The notes: generated by a model not told the origin, from the sequence alone. DNA of 35,338 nucleotides from a virus (IMGVR_UViG_3300035661_000193:1-35338), one strand, 5' to 3'; positions 15,430-22,286 are shown, counted from the first letter of the stretch. Numbers and translations: made by a program.

Positions 15430-15458
15430 TTGACAAATATCTTCCTTAGGTGTATAAT
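15430..15458 (+). promoter_or_regulatory. Sigma-70-type promoter of the sugar operon
   Basis: TTGACA (15430-15435) and TATAAT (15453-15458) are perfect boxes with 17-base spacing. It lies about 29 bases before the ATG at 15487 and is the only clear promoter before the long overlapping run to 20963. Confidence 0.8.
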
Positions 15459-15486
15459 AAACTGTTAACAACCAAAAGGAAAATTC

Positions 15487-15783
15487 ATGTACTTTGACCC
15501 AGCTGCTTTAGCTCAAGAGCTCAAGCGCAATGTGGTAGAAATCCGCTTTACAAAGGCGGATGGAACTTACCGCAGAATGCGATGCACCCTTAAGCCAGAT
15601 TTCTTGCCTCCGCGCGAGATGAAAGAAGGCGACGAGATGAAGTCACCCCAGCTTCTTATGGAAGAGACTGCAAAAGAATCAGCTCGGACTGGACTTTTCA
15701 AAGTTTGGGATATTGATCAAGCCGGTTGGCGATCATTTCATATCAGCACCGCTGATTATGTTCAGACGGTTGACACGATCTGA
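15487..15783 (+). CDS. SH3-barrel/WYL_2-like small protein
   Basis: This 98-residue protein has a beta-rich pattern of the WYL_2 (DUF2693) family, an Sm/SH3-like barrel common in T4-like phages: VVEIRFTKADGT, MRCTLKPDFLP, and a closing VWDIDQAGWRSF. The family's function is unknown; nucleic-acid or ligand binding is suggested by the fold. The ribosome site AAAAGGAA lies just upstream. Its stop overlaps the RlpA-like start by one base. Confidence 0.75.
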   Translation: MYFDPAALAQELKRNVVEIRFTKADGTYRRMRCTLKPDFLPPREMKEGDEMKSPQLLMEETAKESARTGLFKVWDIDQAGWRSFHISTADYVQTVDTI

Positions 15784-16109
15784 TGAGGGCTTTGCTTGTG
15801 GTTACTATTTTAGTAGCTTCAGCAGTTAGTACCGCAGCGAATGCGCGGTGTTTTCTTGCTTCGCACTATGGATTTGAAGCTGGAAGCAGAACTGCTTCTG
15901 GTGAGAGACTAAATCTATCTGATAATACGGCTGCTCATCCGTCTTTACCATTCGGAACAATTCTGATGTTTAAAGACAGAGATGGCAGACCACTTCCTGT
16001 CAGAGTAAACGACCGCGGACCATTTCATGGAAAGCGAAACCTTGACGTTAATTCTGGAGTAGCTCGTAGAATGGGTTGGTCCGGTGTTAGAACAATATGT
16101 GAACACTAG
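15783..16109 (+). CDS. RlpA-like exported lytic transglycosylase domain protein
   Basis: This 108-residue protein has an N-terminal signal peptide (MRALLVVTILVASAVSTAANA; cleavage near 21) and a double-psi beta-barrel domain. RlpA signature elements are present: an AHPSLPFGT block with His52 and VNDRGPF with Asp77, matching the catalytic His and Asp region of RlpA, which cleaves naked glycan strands of peptidoglycan. It lacks a lipobox and a SPOR domain. Export to the periplasm is inferred. A role in lysis, entry preparation or wall remodelling is possible. It is first after the SH3-like gene in the operon. Confidence 0.8.
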   Translation: MRALLVVTILVASAVSTAANARCFLASHYGFEAGSRTASGERLNLSDNTAAHPSLPFGTILMFKDRDGRPLPVRVNDRGPFHGKRNLDVNSGVARRMGWSGVRTICEH

Positions 16110-16120
16110 AAAGGACTGAA

Positions 16121-16495
16121 ATGAGCAAGACCTGGGGTTATAGCCTCTTGATGAACGCCGCCGGATGCAAGCGTGAACTACAGACTTATGAGAACATCTA
16201 TGCTTTCGCCAAGGAATTGGTAAAAGAAATAGATATGGTTGCATACGGTGAACCCCAGATTGTTCATTTCGGTACTGATGACAAGGCCGGATATACGCTG
16301 GTCCAACTTATTGAGACGTCGAATATTTGTGCTCATTTCGTAGAATTGAATGAGGAAATTTATCTCGACGTCTTTTCCTGCAAGTATTTTGAGGATGATG
16401 TGGTGTTCCGCGTATTCGACAAGTACTTTAAACCTATTACCTACACCTCGCGGGTTGTTGACCGTCGAGCTCCGAATGGAAACGAGGACTTCTAA
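16121..16495 (+). CDS. speD: S-adenosylmethionine decarboxylase-like protein
   Basis: This 124-residue SpeD-family protein would convert SAM to decarboxylated SAM for spermidine synthesis. Ser67, His72 and Cys87 match the spacing of Ser63, His68 and Cys83 of Thermotoga AdoMetDC, the pyruvoyl precursor and catalytic residues. The residue before Ser67 is Thr, not the usual Glu, and the residue after it is Asn rather than His, so self-processing is uncertain. I recall this variant (ETSNICAHF) from phage and bacterial homologues. It precedes GmhA by three bases. Roles could be polyamine supply or lowering SAM; neither is shown. Confidence 0.75.
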   Translation: MSKTWGYSLLMNAAGCKRELQTYENIYAFAKELVKEIDMVAYGEPQIVHFGTDDKAGYTLVQLIETSNICAHFVELNEEIYLDVFSCKYFEDDVVFRVFDKYFKPITYTSRVVDRRAPNGNEDF

Positions 16496-16498
16496 ATT

Positions 16499-17107
16499 AT
16501 GAGCAATTGGTATGAATACCACAATGAATTTCGAAAGTTCATTTTGGATTATGAAGATGATGAAAGAAACGCAGAAGCTTATGAGTATGCTATACACTTT
16601 CTTTGTGACGTGAGAAATTTTAGAGGTCGTTGTTTTATTCTTGGCATGGGCGGTTCAGCTGCAAATGCTCAGCATCTTGCAAATGACATGCGGAAAATGT
16701 GTAACATTGATGCCATCAGTCTTTCAGATAATATTGCTGAATTGACTGCACGCGCCAATGATGATGGATTTACACGAATCTATCTTGATAGTCTCAAGGC
16801 ATCAAATCTTGACGAAAATGATGTAGTATTCGTACTGTCAGTTTCAGGTGGTTCTCGCGAGAAGGAAGCATCTCTAGCCCTAGTTCATGCTATGGATTTG
16901 GCAGATGAAAAGCATGCTTCAATTATTGGCATCGTCGGAATGGAAGACTCGGTTGCAGCTTCATTTCGTGGTAAAGAGAACAATGCAATCATGGTAACTC
17001 CCAAAGTTGAAAAGTACCAGACACAGTTTGCTGAAGCTGCGCAGGGCGTTATTTGGCACGGTCTGATTTCTGATCCTCGTCTTATGCAGAAGAGTGCAAA
17101 GTGGTAA
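16499..17107 (+). CDS. gmhA: SIS-domain phosphosugar isomerase, GmhA-like
   Basis: This 202-residue SIS-domain protein is of the phosphoheptose isomerase type, which turns sedoheptulose 7-phosphate into D-glycero-D-manno-heptose 7-phosphate. The GMGGSAANAQHLANDMRK block matches the GmhA phosphate-binding motif, and VLSVSGGSREKEASLAL is the second SIS motif. It sits near an HddA-like kinase and a nucleotidyltransferase in the same operon, which supports heptose chemistry over other SIS functions. It overlaps the next gene by 7 bases. Confidence 0.85.
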   Translation: MSNWYEYHNEFRKFILDYEDDERNAEAYEYAIHFLCDVRNFRGRCFILGMGGSAANAQHLANDMRKMCNIDAISLSDNIAELTARANDDGFTRIYLDSLKASNLDENDVVFVLSVSGGSREKEASLALVHAMDLADEKHASIIGIVGMEDSVAASFRGKENNAIMVTPKVEKYQTQFAEAAQGVIWHGLISDPRLMQKSAKW

Positions 17108-17565
17108 ACACTAATCGTCGTAATTTCCTTTTCGGCTCTCTTGCAGTTGCCTTCACAACGGCACTGCCTTCTATTTCATTTGCTTCATATAACCAGGATA
17201 TCGTAGACGTTATCGAGTCCTGTCATCTAAAATTCGAGAACGCTGAGTATATTGGCGATTGGATGCATATCTTCATTGAAGAGATGGAGAAGAAAATGAA
17301 AGTCTGGGAAACATACGAGCCTCTTAAAGAAATGAGAATGTTCGGTTATGATGAGACTGGCAAGATTGTCGACCAAGGACCATCAGGTTGGTGGACTAAT
17401 CCAAACTTTACCAACGAGTGTCATATGATGGGCCATTGGAACAACTATGACTCTGCTGGTTTTACTTTAGACTTCAAAAATCCAAAGGGTAACTGGGTCA
17501 ATGTCCGATATCATTGGCAAGACAAATCTTTCAAGATCAAAGAAAGAGGTTCAGAGGAAGTATGA
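17101..17565 (+). CDS. Exported protein with twin-arginine (Tat) signal
   Basis: This 154-residue protein starts at GTG 17101. The N-terminus NRRNFLFG followed by a hydrophobic stretch and ALPSISFA resembles a Tat signal peptide (consensus RRxFL), with cleavage near residue 28. Tat substrates are exported folded. The mature domain is Trp-rich (GPSGWWTNPN, MMGHWNNYDS) and unlike any family I recognise. It sits between gmhA and the nucleotidyltransferase, with overlaps on both sides, so it is probably made with the sugar enzymes. Sec export cannot be excluded. Confidence 0.65.
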   Translation: MVNTNRRNFLFGSLAVAFTTALPSISFASYNQDIVDVIESCHLKFENAEYIGDWMHIFIEEMEKKMKVWETYEPLKEMRMFGYDETGKIVDQGPSGWWTNPNFTNECHMMGHWNNYDSAGFTLDFKNPKGNWVNVRYHWQDKSFKIKERGSEEV

Positions 17566-17966
17566 AACCTAAAGTAGGATTTATTTGCGGAACATGGGAC
17601 CTGCTTCATGCAGGCCATGTTCTTGCGCTGCGCGAAGCATCATTCAACTGTCAAGAATTGGTTGTAGGTCTTCAATCTGTTCCAACACATAAGCGTGCTC
17701 CAGTTCAAGGACTGTTTGAGCGTTATCTACAACTTCAAGCAGTTTGTTATGTGAGAGACATTTATCCATATTCGGATGAGCATGATCTTTATAATCTTCT
17801 CGAGTCACTCAAGCCTGACATTCGATTTCTTGGATCAGATTACAAGAATATATCCAAGCCAATTACTGGCTACCACGTAGCACCAATCCATTATATAGAC
17901 CGAAATCATCAGTATTCAACTACTGATCTAATTCATCGTGTGAAAGAAAGCAAGCTTTATGTTTGA
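17562..17966 (+). CDS. Cytidylyltransferase-like nucleotidyltransferase
   Basis: This 134-residue protein resembles TagD/RfaE-C-terminal nucleotidyltransferases, which link a nucleotide to a sugar or polyol phosphate. It has the HxGH motif in GTWDLLHAGH and a C-terminal YSTTDLIHRV like the ISSTxI signature. ATG 17562 overlaps the previous stop (ATGA). A neighbouring GmhA and heptose kinase suggest activation of a heptose 1-phosphate to NDP-heptose. The nucleotide (CTP or ATP) cannot be read from sequence. Confidence 0.85.
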   Translation: MKPKVGFICGTWDLLHAGHVLALREASFNCQELVVGLQSVPTHKRAPVQGLFERYLQLQAVCYVRDIYPYSDEHDLYNLLESLKPDIRFLGSDYKNISKPITGYHVAPIHYIDRNHQYSTTDLIHRVKESKLYV

Positions 17967-18981
17967 GGAAAATGAGATCTCGAAAAATGCTGTCGGTGGA
18001 ACTGAATTGACCAAGCGTGGTCTTGGTAAGATTATTGATCCTACACTAGCATCTAATTTCCAAATCATTTGTTCGCGTGTCCGTGAACTTGATCCGACAA
18101 AGATTAGAGTGTACTGGGTTCATGATTTGCCATCTGATCCAGAGTGTGCAAAAATCAAGGACAAGTCATTCCGTGACCAGTTTCATTTGATTGCTTTTAC
18201 CTCAGACTATCTGTACATGCGGTTCCGACAGGAGCATGGAGTACCATATGATGAGAAATTCGTGGTTATCGAATCTTGCATTGATCCGATCGACTCTCCA
18301 GAAAAACCGGATGATACGATCAATCTGATCTATCATACCACACCACATCGTGGATTGGCTCTGCTTGTTCCAGCATTTGGTTTCCTTGCAAAAATCCATC
18401 CTGAAATTCGATTGCATGTATTTTCATCCTTTAAGGTCTATGGATGGCCTGAGGCAGATGCTCAGTTTGAGCCGCTGTACGAACAAATCAGACAGCATGA
18501 ACAAGCAACGTATCACGAATTCTCTGGCACTGACTCCTACAAAGATGTAGTTGCACAGCTCGAAAAGACTCACATCTTTGGCTATCCTTGTGTCTGGGAA
18601 GAAACATTCTGTCGATCAGTCGTTGAGGCTATGTCTGCAGAGTGTCTTGTAGTTCATCCAAACTTCGGTGCTCTTCCATTCACTTCTGGTGGATTGAATA
18701 TTCAATATCCTGGCGATGCAGACCATAACAAGCATCTCAACACCTTTACTAAGTTCCTTGATATTGCTATCAAGATCACAAAAGGTAAGGAAGTAGCAAC
18801 TAAAGACCGCTTGCGCTTCAATAAGGCGTATGTTGATACTCAGTATTCTACTCAGTATATCGCAAACAAGTGGACTGCACAAATGAATGCGCTTCTTCAG
18901 CAGTATCCAGATGAAGCATCTCGTGCACTTCCAAAACCAGATGATCGTCCGATGTTTGTATTCAATACAAGTCCAAGATGA
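17959..18981 (+). CDS. GT-B glycosyltransferase (GT4-like)
   Basis: This 340-residue protein has GT-B features: a C-terminal Rossmann-like half with LIYHTTPHRGLALLVPAF and an EETFCRSVVEAM block that fits the GT4 EX7E motif, which contacts the nucleotide sugar. There is no signal peptide or membrane segment, so it works in the cytosol. It overlaps the nucleotidyltransferase by 8 bases and the next gene by 4. It likely transfers the operon's activated sugar. The acceptor is unknown. Confidence 0.8.
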   Translation: MFEENEISKNAVGGTELTKRGLGKIIDPTLASNFQIICSRVRELDPTKIRVYWVHDLPSDPECAKIKDKSFRDQFHLIAFTSDYLYMRFRQEHGVPYDEKFVVIESCIDPIDSPEKPDDTINLIYHTTPHRGLALLVPAFGFLAKIHPEIRLHVFSSFKVYGWPEADAQFEPLYEQIRQHEQATYHEFSGTDSYKDVVAQLEKTHIFGYPCVWEETFCRSVVEAMSAECLVVHPNFGALPFTSGGLNIQYPGDADHNKHLNTFTKFLDIAIKITKGKEVATKDRLRFNKAYVDTQYSTQYIANKWTAQMNALLQQYPDEASRALPKPDDRPMFVFNTSPR

Positions 18982-19331
18982 GCAGAATCTTTGTATTTGA
19001 GATAAAACATACTCCAGAACTATATCCAGCAAATCTTGGTTTTATCTTTGCTGACGGTGATTACTACGCCAAAGTAGCAATTTGCAATCCAGCAGACCGA
19101 GAGAATCCAACATTCAAAATTGGATTCCGGTTGGACGCTGAAGATGGTGCAGATCTATACATTGCTGGTCAAAAATGTATTGGCAAATGGACAAGCGATT
19201 TTCACCACATTCAGAAACAGTCAAAAGATTTTGCTATGACTTTTGTAGATTGGAAACAAGAACTTTCTCAAGACCTTAGAGCTGTTGGATATAAAGCTGA
19301 AGAGTTTCCTGAATTGAAAGATTATCTATGA
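18978..19331 (+). CDS. Unknown operon protein between glycosyltransferase and kinase
   Basis: This 117-residue protein has a beta-rich first two-thirds (RIFVFEIKH, LGFIFADGDYYAKVAI, FKIGFRLDAED) and a helical C-terminus. I do not recognise the family. It is coupled by ATGA overlaps with the glycosyltransferase before and the kinase after, so it is probably needed in the same pathway. There is no signal peptide, membrane segment or metal motif. Confidence 0.55.
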   Translation: MSRIFVFEIKHTPELYPANLGFIFADGDYYAKVAICNPADRENPTFKIGFRLDAEDGADLYIAGQKCIGKWTSDFHHIQKQSKDFAMTFVDWKQELSQDLRAVGYKAEEFPELKDYL

Positions 19332-20332
19332 TTATAGCTAAAACTCCTCTTCGAGTATCATTTTTTGGCGGTGGTTCTGACCTTCCTGCTTTTACCGACA
19401 GAGAAGATGGAGCGGCACTATCGGTTTCTATTGATAAGTTTGTCTATGTGATTCTCCATGAGACAACTAAGAATATTCGTTTTCTACATGAGGAAATTGA
19501 ACAAGTTTATAATATCATGCAAATGAGAAACAAGATTGTATCCAATGCTTTAACTTATCACGACATTGATAAAGGTTTGGATATCGTTTCGTTGTCAGAT
19601 GTTCCATCTGTAGGCTCCGGTCTTGGTGGATCGTCAGCATTTACTGTAGGTTTATGTGCTGCACTACTCAAGCATAGATGGCCAGTTGCTGAGTATACGA
19701 ATGAACAGTTTGCTCAAGAAGCTGTCAGAATTGAAATAGACTACTGTCATTTTCCAATCGGTATTCAGGATCAGTATGCTACTGCAGTTGGTGGTTTCAA
19801 TCTTTGGAAGTTCTTCTCTAAATCTCGACGAGCTGAGATAACCAAGAAATTCTATAAATGGCCTGAATGCCAGCCACTTGAAGAAAGACTGTTACTTGTT
19901 CACTCCGGTCTTCAGCGTGTTGGTTCAGCAGGCAGTATTCTTCAAGAGCAGCAATCCGCACTTCAATCAGATGAAGCTAAATTTCAGATTATGCAATCCA
20001 TCAGAGATCGAGCGTACCAAGGAGCTGAACTTCTAGAAAAAGGTCTATTGGACCGTTTTGGGGCACTGCTTCATGACAACTGGATCGACAAAAAGACTCT
20101 GTCTCATTCACTGTCAGACAAACGGTTTGATGAACTCTATGACAAAGCTCTCGACATGGGCGCTCTAGGGGGTAAACTACTTGGTGCTGGCGGTGGTGGA
20201 TTCTTTCTATTTTATATTCCAGAGTACATTGACAAAATCCAATTCGGTCAGGAGCTTACAGAAGAGTATCCTACTGCAAAAGTCTTCCCATTCAAATTTC
20301 ACTATACAGGAACGGAACTAACTCATGTTTAA
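19328..20332 (+). CDS. hddA: D-glycero-D-manno-heptose 7-phosphate kinase-like (GHMP kinase)
   Basis: This 334-residue GHMP kinase has a start motif TPLRVSFFGGGSDLP, an ATP loop GSGLGGSSAF, and a C-terminal GGKLLGAGGGGFF motif. These match the HddA family, which phosphorylates D-glycero-D-manno-heptose 7-phosphate at C1 in GDP-heptose pathways; related sugar kinases such as L-fucokinase share parts of the pattern. The GmhA-like gene upstream supports the heptose reading. It overlaps genes on both sides by 4 and 8 bases. Confidence 0.85.
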   Translation: MIIAKTPLRVSFFGGGSDLPAFTDREDGAALSVSIDKFVYVILHETTKNIRFLHEEIEQVYNIMQMRNKIVSNALTYHDIDKGLDIVSLSDVPSVGSGLGGSSAFTVGLCAALLKHRWPVAEYTNEQFAQEAVRIEIDYCHFPIGIQDQYATAVGGFNLWKFFSKSRRAEITKKFYKWPECQPLEERLLLVHSGLQRVGSAGSILQEQQSALQSDEAKFQIMQSIRDRAYQGAELLEKGLLDRFGALLHDNWIDKKTLSHSLSDKRFDELYDKALDMGALGGKLLGAGGGGFFLFYIPEYIDKIQFGQELTEEYPTAKVFPFKFHYTGTELTHV

Positions 20333-20963
20333 CTTGAAACTTATTGATCTGCCAGGTGATTCCGGCAACTACGAAGTAATCACAGATGCTGCAAACTTTG
20401 TTTCAGCAAATAAGACACCAGGCCTCGCTATTGAAATCGGTCTTCGCCGTGGAGGTGGTTCTAAAGCAATGATCGATGCAATGGTTGCTAATGACTATCG
20501 TCGACCTCTAGTTGGCATTGATCCATATGGAAATATTGACTACAATACCTCCATTGGAACTGTTGACAACCAAGTAACCACGAAGATGGACTATACAAAT
20601 GACATGCGAGCCGACTGTATGGTCAATATGTATGAATACTGCAAGATGCATCGCGTCAATTTCACCTTTATCAACCTCGAGGACACAGAATTCTTTAGCA
20701 GATATGCCGACGGTGTTCCTATCTATGATGAACATAAGGAGATTTGGAATCAATATGCGCTAGTGCATTTTGACGGACCACATTTTCTTCCTGACGTACT
20801 CAAGGAAATTGAATTCTTTGACAGCCGAACTCCACCAGATGCTGCGTATGTTTTTGATGACGTGTCCTATTACAAGCATGAAGTAGTAGATAACCATTTG
20901 CTTGCAACGGGTTGGAAAAACCGCTTGAAAACACCACACAAGTGGTCCTACATTAAGGGTTGA
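20325..20963 (+). CDS. Class I SAM-dependent methyltransferase-like protein
   Basis: This 212-residue protein has a Rossmann-type motif I (LAIEIGLRRGGGSKAMIDAM) followed by PLVGIDPYGN with an acidic residue for SAM binding, then VHFDGPH. The pattern resembles Methyltransf_24/TylF-type O-methyltransferases that act on sugars. It is the last gene of the sugar operon; its stop codon lies in the -35 box of the next promoter. It may methylate the sugar that the operon makes. Confidence 0.65.
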   Translation: MFNLKLIDLPGDSGNYEVITDAANFVSANKTPGLAIEIGLRRGGGSKAMIDAMVANDYRRPLVGIDPYGNIDYNTSIGTVDNQVTTKMDYTNDMRADCMVNMYEYCKMHRVNFTFINLEDTEFFSRYADGVPIYDEHKEIWNQYALVHFDGPHFLPDVLKEIEFFDSRTPPDAAYVFDDVSYYKHEVVDNHLLATGWKNRLKTPHKWSYIKG

Positions 20964-20988
20964 CAGATATCTGAAAATGGTATATCAT
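20960..20988 (+). promoter_or_regulatory. Sigma-70-type promoter with conserved 18-base -35 region
   Basis: TTGACA (20960-20965) and TATCAT (20983-20988) are 17 bases apart. The sequence GGGTTGACAGATATCTGA is identical at the 31727 promoter and contains the palindrome CAGATATCTG. A CATAAATA late-type element (20986-20993) overlaps the -10. Confidence 0.65.
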
Positions 20989-21021: not shown

Positions 21022-21408
21022 ATGGAAGAAACTACAAATGTTATTCAGTTTCCGCTGAAGAACCCTCGAGCGCCTATTAAGACAGAAGAACAGACTGACG
21101 AAGTTATCTACACTGCTCAAATGTCTCACGTCGAACAAGCTGTTGAGTTTGTTGCGCCGATATTATTCTCATATCTATCGCAAGCAGGATTTTCTTTTGC
21201 AGAAATCAAGCCTGATGCTATTGAGAATGATGATGTAAAGAATGCAGCATTTCTTATTGAGTCAATTCGTTCTGTCTTATCGGCGAAGTATAATATCGAA
21301 CATCCATTCCAAGAGCTTGCTCAAGCAAGTTTCCAAGATCAGGAAGGTGGCGGTTTCAAATTAGCCGAATCCGTAAACATCACGTTCAAAAAAGCCAAGA
21401 CGGCATAA
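21022..21408 (+). CDS. Hypothetical protein upstream of RNase H
   Basis: This 128-residue protein begins MEETTNVIQFPLKNP, a pattern seen at the start of many phage proteins that bind replication partners, although I do not recognise the family. The middle is helical (HVEQAVEFVAPILFSYL), and the C-terminus is beta-like. It is the first gene after the 20960 promoter and precedes RNase H by 11 bases, so a replication or recombination role is possible. No catalytic motif is seen. Confidence 0.5.
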   Translation: MEETTNVIQFPLKNPRAPIKTEEQTDEVIYTAQMSHVEQAVEFVAPILFSYLSQAGFSFAEIKPDAIENDDVKNAAFLIESIRSVLSAKYNIEHPFQELAQASFQDQEGGGFKLAESVNITFKKAKTA

Positions 21409-21419
21409 GGAACTTCAAA

Positions 21420-22286
21420 GTGATTATTGTAGACCTCTCGCAGGTATGCATTTCCAATTTAATGATACAGCTAGGCCAACATACCAACACTGAACTTGAT
21501 GTTGGCCTACTGCGTCATATGATCCTGAACCAAATTCGGTTCTTAAATACTAAATTCCGCCAAGAGTATGGTGAGATGGTTATTGCTTGTGATAACCGTT
21601 ACTATTGGCGTAAGAAAGCATTTCCTCTTTACAAAGCACGGCGCAAAGTTGATCGTGCGGAATCTGATCTCGATTGGGATCAGATCTTCAAGGCTCTGCA
21701 CGAGGTGCGAGCTGAGCTGAAGGAATATTTCCCATACAGAGTCATTGAAGTAGACGGAGCTGAAGCTGATGATATCATCGGTTCCCTTTGCCATGTCTAT
21801 GGAAACGAAGACATGAACTTTGGCAAAAAGATTCTGATCGTTTCCGGGGATAAAGACTTCCTTCAGCTCCAGAAATATCAAAACGTCTTCCAGTATAATC
21901 CAACACAAAAGAAAAAGCTTGTTGAGAAAAATCCAACAGAGTTCTTGCTTGAGCATGTTATTCGTGGTGATACTGGTGATGGTGTTCCAAATATGCTGTC
22001 TGATGACGACACTTTGGTTACCGAAGGAAAACGCCAAACTCCTATCACTGCAAAGAAGTTAGCATCACTGAAGAACAGCATTCTTCAGAACATACTTCCT
22101 GAGCGAGAAGAGCGAAACTATTTCCGTAATCTGGAATTGATCTCACTCGATCATATTCCCACTGACATTCAAGACAAGATTATGGCCGAGTATGAAGCAC
22201 AAGGCGGCAAAGGGCGCGCGAAACTCTTTAACTACTTCATCAAATTCAAACTAAAAAACTTACAACAAAATATCGGAGAATTTTAA
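21420..22286 (+). CDS. T4-type RNase H / 5'-3' flap exonuclease
   Basis: This 288-residue FEN-family nuclease would remove RNA primers from lagging-strand fragments. The acidic metal motifs are in order and line up with T4 RNase H: IIVDLSQV, ACDNRYYWRKKAFPLYK, GAEADDIIG, SGDKDFLQL and GDTGDGVPN. The start is GTG 21420 with AAGGAA ten bases upstream. It overlaps the next gene by one base. The primase upstream and the exonuclease downstream complete a replication set. Confidence 0.9.
   Translation: MIIVDLSQVCISNLMIQLGQHTNTELDVGLLRHMILNQIRFLNTKFRQEYGEMVIACDNRYYWRKKAFPLYKARRKVDRAESDLDWDQIFKALHEVRAELKEYFPYRVIEVDGAEADDIIGSLCHVYGNEDMNFGKKILIVSGDKDFLQLQKYQNVFQYNPTQKKKLVEKNPTEFLLEHVIRGDTGDGVPNMLSDDDTLVTEGKRQTPITAKKLASLKNSILQNILPEREERNYFRNLELISLDHIPTDIQDKIMAEYEAQGGKGRAKLFNYFIKFKLKNLQQNIGEF

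Follow-up and report, generated by a model that had tools for sequence, protein, structure and literature searches.

The operon is real, conserved and coherent, and it can be read as the way in which a phage makes an activated heptose; its kinase and nucleotidyltransferase are an unusual combination. We consider it likely that the operon both makes the activated heptose and transfers it, a reading that names no single acceptor. Family membership, predicted fold, motifs, gene order and co-occurrence were observed directly, and from them we infer every reaction, the identity of the sugar and the nucleotide. The window, i.e., the whole stretch of DNA analysed, is a linear fragment, 35,338 bases long, that makes up a complete IMG/VR record (IMGVR_UViG_3300035661_000193) and also encodes a ribonucleotide reductase, a T4-type primase, RNase H, an RtcB ligase and other phage genes. 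Close DNA relatives were absent from 50,697 phage records when its first 25 kb were used as the query. Its protein relatives are T4-superfamily phages, mostly alphaproteobacterial (Caulobacter phage Cr30, Sinorhizobium phiM12, Ochrobactrum OC and Rhizobium RHph_I1_18), with Stenotrophomonas DLP6 also among them.

All features given here lie on the + strand. The run opens at 15430, the first base of a TTGACA-N17-TATAAT sequence (15430..15458), and closes at 20963, the stop of a methyltransferase-like gene. This sigma-70-type promoter, a consensus match only, agrees with the consensus at 12/12 positions and is the best site of the region, where promoter-like sites are overall not commoner than in shuffles (14 versus 15.2). 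In the nearest relative, locus L107, the WYL_2 gene is likewise preceded by a 12/12 site; a promoter at that place is kept in only some relatives. From 16499 to 20963, successive genes overlap by 4-8 bases: isomerase/Tat-signal protein 7, Tat-signal protein/nucleotidyltransferase 4, nucleotidyltransferase/glycosyltransferase 8, glycosyltransferase/HP117 4, HP117/kinase 4 and kinase/methyltransferase 8. Genes upstream of the isomerase show a 1-base overlap or gaps of 3-11 bases. Coordinates, overlaps, promoter and the gene families found in profile searches all bear out a preliminary description of this DNA, whose list of genes did not include the WYL_2, RlpA-like, AdoMet-decarboxylase-like, Tat-signal protein and HP117 genes of the run. 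A chance grouping was considered and dropped, as the gene order is retained in dozens of relatives.

The kinase (19328..20332) is HddA-like. It carries a PxxxGLGxSSA-type motif, and HddA is its nearest family within the GHMP kinases (NF049969, 1.5e-41). Its four best PDB matches (3e-38 to 2e-30) stand well ahead of all others; the top two, 4usm and 4usk, are titled “putative sugar kinase” and we take them to be WcbL, while 3k85 and 4n3o are D-glycero-D-manno-heptose kinases. Galacto- and fucokinases match at 1e-9 or worse. Its score is below the NCBIfam equivalog cut-off for HddA (143 versus 600 bits), and every family score in the run falls under such cut-offs.

The SIS-domain isomerase (16499..17107) matches the SIS_2/GmhA profiles at 1.4e-7 and TIGR00441 at 3.3e-12, misses the GmhA equivalog cut-off (46.7 versus 209 bits), and its sequence match to GmhA (3e-7) is weaker than the evidence for the kinase. 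Its AlphaFold model, built from 40 phage relatives, reached a pLDDT of 96.4, and the top 35 PDB matches of this model are GmhA, its paralogue DiaA or 1x94 (titled “hypothetical protein”); arabinose-5-phosphate isomerase is a far weaker fold match than GmhA or DiaA. The model thus suggests an isomerase of the GmhA type.

The nucleotidyltransferase (17562..17966) belongs to the CTP_transf_like/RfaE_dom_II family, RfaE domain II giving the best score (TIGR02199, 8.9e-15; PHROG 7878, 1.4e-26). We place its start at the ATG at 17562 and not at the mechanically called TTG at 17514. It has HAGH at 16 and STT at 119, i.e., the HxGH and STT motifs of the HldE C-terminal/TagD superfamily, and the profiles agree with the earlier view that it is not of the HddC type. 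The glycosyltransferase (17959..18981) matches Glycos_transf_1 at 1.8e-9 and has an invariant EX7E pair at 215/223. Its model (pLDDT 93.2) finds GT-B/GT4-type enzymes as its nearest folds, and by GT-B fold and EX7E pair it is predicted to be a retaining GT4-type enzyme.

Around these four genes lie others of less certain role. The cassette has as its left neighbour a WYL_2 (DUF2693) protein (15487..15783; PF10902, 7.6e-13), present in 26/26 kinase loci, followed by a protein (15783..16109; PF03330, 2e-13) that has an RlpA-like double-psi beta-barrel and what looks like a signal peptide, and by an AdoMet-decarboxylase-like (SpeD) protein (16121..16495; PF02675, 5.9e-15), found in 21/26 of the relatives' cassettes. 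A Tat-signal protein (17101..17565; NRRNFLFG; PF10518 at 3e-4, slightly under the cut-off) and HP117 (18978..19331; no family assigned) had no relatives in the fetched loci. The last gene of the run (20325..20963) resembles Methyltransf_24 and may encode a sugar O-methyltransferase. The gene is where it had been placed before, but the family call is weak in the window (PF13578, 6.5e-5, just below the Pfam cut-off); the methyltransferases of relatives score above that cut-off. We dropped the idea of a DNA methylase, since the family matches are of small-molecule types. A second promoter-like site (20960..20988; 11/12) precedes the right neighbour HP128 (21022..21408; kept in 25/26 relatives) and the T4-like RNase H gene, rnh (21420..22286; PHROG 107, 1.4e-55), the right border of the cassette slot.

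In the route that we propose, the SIS protein would isomerise sedoheptulose-7-phosphate, which the transaldolase of relatives could provide, to D-glycero-D-manno-heptose-7-phosphate. The HddA-like kinase would then put a phosphate on C1, giving heptose-1,7-bisphosphate, and a GmhB-type phosphatase, in the case of the window from the host or an unseen part of the genome, would take off the 7-phosphate. The RfaE-II-like enzyme would convert the resulting heptose-1-phosphate to an NDP-heptose, the retaining GT-B enzyme would link the heptose to its acceptor, and the methyltransferase may O-methylate the sugar. Judged by sequence families, the predicted route is a hybrid of a GDP-heptose-type kinase and an ADP-heptose-type nucleotidyltransferase. 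HddA kinases (alpha anomer) are not known to be paired with enzymes of the RfaE-II type, which in bacteria use the beta anomer.

When the window's kinase and isomerase were run against viral contigs as single sequences, nothing matched, and alignments were required. Alignment scans confirmed 592 relatives of the glycosyltransferase, 524 of the kinase and 220 of the transaldolase, with 80 loci of each kept; related sugar kinases and transferases are present on hundreds of environmental virus fragments. In T4-like phages the cassette occupies a slot between glutaredoxin/WYL_2/SpeD and RNase H/DUF6433, which in most relatives holds nucleotidyltransferase, isomerase, GmhB-like HAD phosphatase, transaldolase, glycosyltransferase and kinase, often with extra methyltransferases. 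Of the non-redundant kinase loci, 26 had enough flanking sequence; all of these contain the isomerase and the glycosyltransferase, and 23 the nucleotidyltransferase. The GmhB-like phosphatase (profile match 5e-24), which adjoins the isomerase in most relatives, is present in 22 of them and the transaldolase (1.6e-79) in 21. Isomerase and kinase come together or not at all in 43 glycosyltransferase loci (both in 29, neither in 14; Fisher 1.3e-11, kinship ignored), and 594 of 611 neighbouring gene pairs in the cassettes, near-copies counted, overlap or lie at most 20 bases apart. With the cassette conserved in this way, the pathway reading rests on more than the window.

The gaps in the window's own gene set are also clearer from its relatives. 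L107 has the order WYL_2, SpeD, isomerase, nucleotidyltransferase, glycosyltransferase, HddA-like kinase, methyltransferase, HP128, rnh, with neither GmhB nor transaldolase found in its 22 kb. Locus L106 has a GmhB-like gene immediately ahead of its isomerase, and the nucleotidyltransferase was not found there. Neither a GmhB-like phosphatase nor a transaldolase was detected in the 35,338 bases of the window, the former absence having been pointed out in the preliminary description. That description spoke of a nearly full heptose route: its gene families are confirmed and the gene order is kept in relatives, but the window is short of both GmhB and transaldolase. The comparison of gene order among related phages that it proposed gave the same slot and a conserved set, and because 22/26 kinase loci carry a GmhB-like gene, the step missing in the window can be explained as a gene of its relatives.

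A tree of 95 glycosyltransferases placed all 43/43 of those with heptose genes in one group of 46 rows (support 100/96), where the enzyme of the window groups with those of L107 and L106. Over the whole tree, the heptose-gene label changes at least four times. In phiM12 and RHph_I1_18 the glycosyltransferase sits at the same spot, beside WYL_2 and rnh, without heptose genes. The simplest reading would be that the glycosyltransferase is older and that the sugar genes were added later in one lineage. Bacterial chromosomes (Paraburkholderia/Caballeronia, Pelagibacter) also contain related glycosyltransferases, as orphan genes with uninformative neighbours.

What receives the sugar had been left open among DNA, virion protein and host envelope, and rightly so. 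A TET/JBP dioxygenase or a dCMP-hydroxymethylase-like enzyme accompanies most cassettes, a hint that the DNA may be heptosylated, but one contig close to the window, G019, has neither. In our estimate, there is somewhat less than an even chance that the acceptor is an envelope glycan of the host or some other host molecule, and the solitary glycosyltransferases of bacterial chromosomes are a hint in that direction. A phage DNA base is possible but rather unlikely, a virion or other protein clearly unlikely, and anything else would be surprising.

If DNA received the sugar, the glycosyltransferase would add heptose to a 5-hydroxymethylated base made by a TET/JBP dioxygenase or by a dCMP hydroxymethylase. 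T4 puts glucose on bases of this kind, and RB69 puts arabinose on them. The lack of a match to the dCMP hydroxymethylase family (PF00303) in 13/14 long cassette contigs seemed to exclude this, until PF12851 (matches up to 1e-30) revealed Tet_JBP proteins in many cassette contigs and in Cr30, at a fixed place, the gp46-gp45 slot, near MazG. An amino acid:DNA transferase (ADDT; PF18724) is often beside the TET gene, matching at 1e-52 in Cr30. Two contigs without Tet_JBP, G004 and G021, have in the same slot a short thymidylate-synthase-family enzyme next to a dCMP deaminase; it has Asp at the position of the ThyA Asn, and by comparison with T4 gp42 we take it to be a putative dCMP hydroxymethylase. 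Where the slot is visible, it holds TET or the thymidylate-synthase-family enzyme in 15/17 cassette records versus 1/5 phages with the glycosyltransferase only (Fisher 0.009); after hand-merging of near-copies, 11/13 cassette records remain (one-sided Fisher 0.02; shared ancestry ignored in both tests).

On the other side, the cassette of G019 (181 kb), the contig of L106 and the window's next-closest relative, is not accompanied by TET, thymidylate-synthase-family enzyme or ADDT, and the gp46-gp45 slot of G041 is empty. Due to the G019 exception, we did not take DNA as the main reading. TET occurs without an accompanying C5 methyltransferase; such an enzyme, which might have supplied the TET substrate, was found only in G004, which itself has no TET. 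Moreover, phiM12, RHph_I1_18, OC and G005, complete phages among them, have the glycosyltransferase without a hydroxymethyl-base route, so DNA was probably not the original acceptor. The fullest version would end in a heptosylated genome: phage-encoded enzymes (transaldolase, isomerase, kinase, phosphatase and nucleotidyltransferase) would draw on central metabolism to build heptose, which would then go onto DNA bases hydroxymethylated by TET/JBP or, interchangeably, by a hydroxymethylase. This version seems to us more doubtful still.

The sugar might instead be placed on a capsid or tail protein. Where PMC12619734 cites work on mycobacteriophages, their virion proteins are described as glycosylated, with the sugar acting as a shield. 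The glycosyltransferase is kept across phages whose hosts differ greatly (Sinorhizobium, Rhizobium, Ochrobactrum, Caulobacter and Stenotrophomonas), which suits a phage-made acceptor, and SdgB and GtfA, both of which glycosylate proteins, are among its nearest folds. However, the structural agreement is loose (TM about 0.6), the acceptors of the matched enzymes are variously proteins, teichoic acids and small molecules, and the operon, with its host-type promoter, is located with replication genes and not with structural ones. We regard a virion acceptor as having a low probability.

It is also conceivable that the SIS protein uses another ketose phosphate and that the cassette yields a different product, e.g., an activated pentose. 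Residues H59, D63, E179 and H187 occupy the metal-site positions and are invariant across the 40 phage isomerases. The bacterial GmhA site is His/Glu/Gln/His, with E65 and Q172 as the Glu and Gln positions in E. coli. The phage pattern is His/Asp/Glu/His in comparison with this reference, for which PDB titles (Q175E, H64Q) were also used. Since D63 and E179 replace the usual Glu/Gln pair in all 40 phage isomerases, activity or substrate may differ; SIS domains also make arabinose-5-phosphate, and SIS-like genes take part in the arabinosylation carried out by RB69 (PMC6024577). Nevertheless, kinase, isomerase and phosphatase each independently indicate heptose and the transaldolase reaction gives sedoheptulose-7-phosphate, which leaves a different sugar improbable. 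The heptose reading that had been given to the SIS protein and the kinase survives, as the PDB ranking of the kinase and the GmhA fold of the SIS protein point to no other sugar family.

This heptose cassette has partial precedents. In Cr30 (KF301602), one run contains an isomerase (at 2793), an HddA-like kinase (3541), a glycosyltransferase of the family seen in the window (4525) and an epimerase (5513), the first two annotated as phosphoheptose isomerase and D,D-heptose 7-phosphate kinase. Cr30 differs from the window in this extra, GalE-like epimerase and in having its nucleotidyltransferase elsewhere in the genome (153231); it has no GmhB and, in its heptose run, no transaldolase. Cr30 is a cultured phage carrying related heptose genes plus Tet_JBP. 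For the cyanophage SynMITS9220M01, the authors list heptose-related LPS synthesis (PMC7378029); it shares the HddA-like kinase, phosphoheptose isomerase and RfaE-II-like nucleotidyltransferase and adds an epimerase, all adjacent. It differs in belonging to another phage family, in its large sugar region and in the fusion of its nucleotidyltransferase with an additional N-terminal part, and no WYL_2/rnh slot was seen in it.

Compared with the bacterial route to GDP-D-glycero-alpha-D-manno-heptose (GmhA, HddA, GmhB, HddC), the phages share GmhA-like, HddA-like and, in relatives only, GmhB-like enzymes, whereas they have an RfaE-II-like enzyme in place of HddC and add a transaldolase (relatives) and a glycosyltransferase to the operon. 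Compared with the route to ADP-L-glycero-beta-D-manno-heptose (GmhA, HldE, GmhB), their nucleotidyltransferase resembles the HldE C-terminal domain, but their kinase is of the GHMP type and the HldE kinase domain of the PfkB type. RB69, also T4-like, attaches its own arabinose, a pentose, to DNA and has SIS-like and nucleotidyltransferase-like genes for this dedicated sugar (PMC6024577); there the DNA acceptor is demonstrated, while the cassette of the window is known from genes and predicted structures. The preliminary description called the system new, which is right for the operon variant but not for phage heptose genes as such, annotated before in Cr30 and SynMITS9220M01 (PMC7378029). The open-access literature searched gave no account of a heptose operon from transaldolase to glycosyltransferase or of its link to TET/JBP.

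Taken together, lytic phages that carry a whole sugar-nucleotide pathway, back to a transaldolase that might supply the starting ketose, would be giving up part of their coding capacity for a specific glycan mark. With a kinase and a nucleotidyltransferase of these two types, the product may be an activated heptose with an unfamiliar nucleotide or anomer. The gene pattern also connects TET/JBP-type base modification with the heptose cassettes of T4-like phages. Whether DNA, virion or envelope carries the mark matters for host range, restriction escape and superinfection exclusion.

Among the proteins of the operon, an AdoMet-decarboxylase-like protein (window 16121-16495) has a counterpart accompanying the cassette in 21 of 26 non-redundant kinase loci. 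It appears to carry IETS in place of the SES processing motif that is usual and, therefore, may not be a normal decarboxylase. The operon also encodes a Tat-signal protein (window 17101-17565), for which no relatives were found among the fetched loci; export of a phage protein by the Tat system would be unusual. In cyanophage SynMITS9220M01, the RfaE-II-like nucleotidyltransferase (L004:11448-12200) has a fused N-terminal part resembling a HAD phosphatase. Relatives of the phage glycosyltransferase stand alone in Paraburkholderia, Caballeronia and Burkholderia contigs (L248, L250-L253, L255-L257, L266), and no phage or polysaccharide cluster was evident among the neighbours of L248 and L252.

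Dioxygenases of the Tet_JBP family (PF12851), with lengths near 440-470 aa, are encoded in Caulobacter phage Cr30 (KF301602, 59353-60681) and in contigs or genomes of relatives (G001, G020, G022-G025, G029-G031 and others), always with gp46 on one side and clamp genes on the other. For the copies in Cr30 and Stenotrophomonas phage DLP6, the existing annotation reads SNF2 DNA repair protein. In G004 and G021, this position is occupied by short thymidylate-synthase-family genes (L297:9516-10166 and L296:9616-10293, respectively), each adjoined by a dCMP deaminase gene; their products, in which the ThyA Asn is replaced by Asp, are candidate dCMP hydroxymethylases. In Cr30, the dioxygenase gene adjoins those of an amino acid:DNA transferase (PF18724, 1.3e-52) and a protein weakly resembling TET-associated glycosyltransferases (L290:4427-5656 and L290:3519-4445 for the pair), and the DNA of this phage is probably hypermodified.
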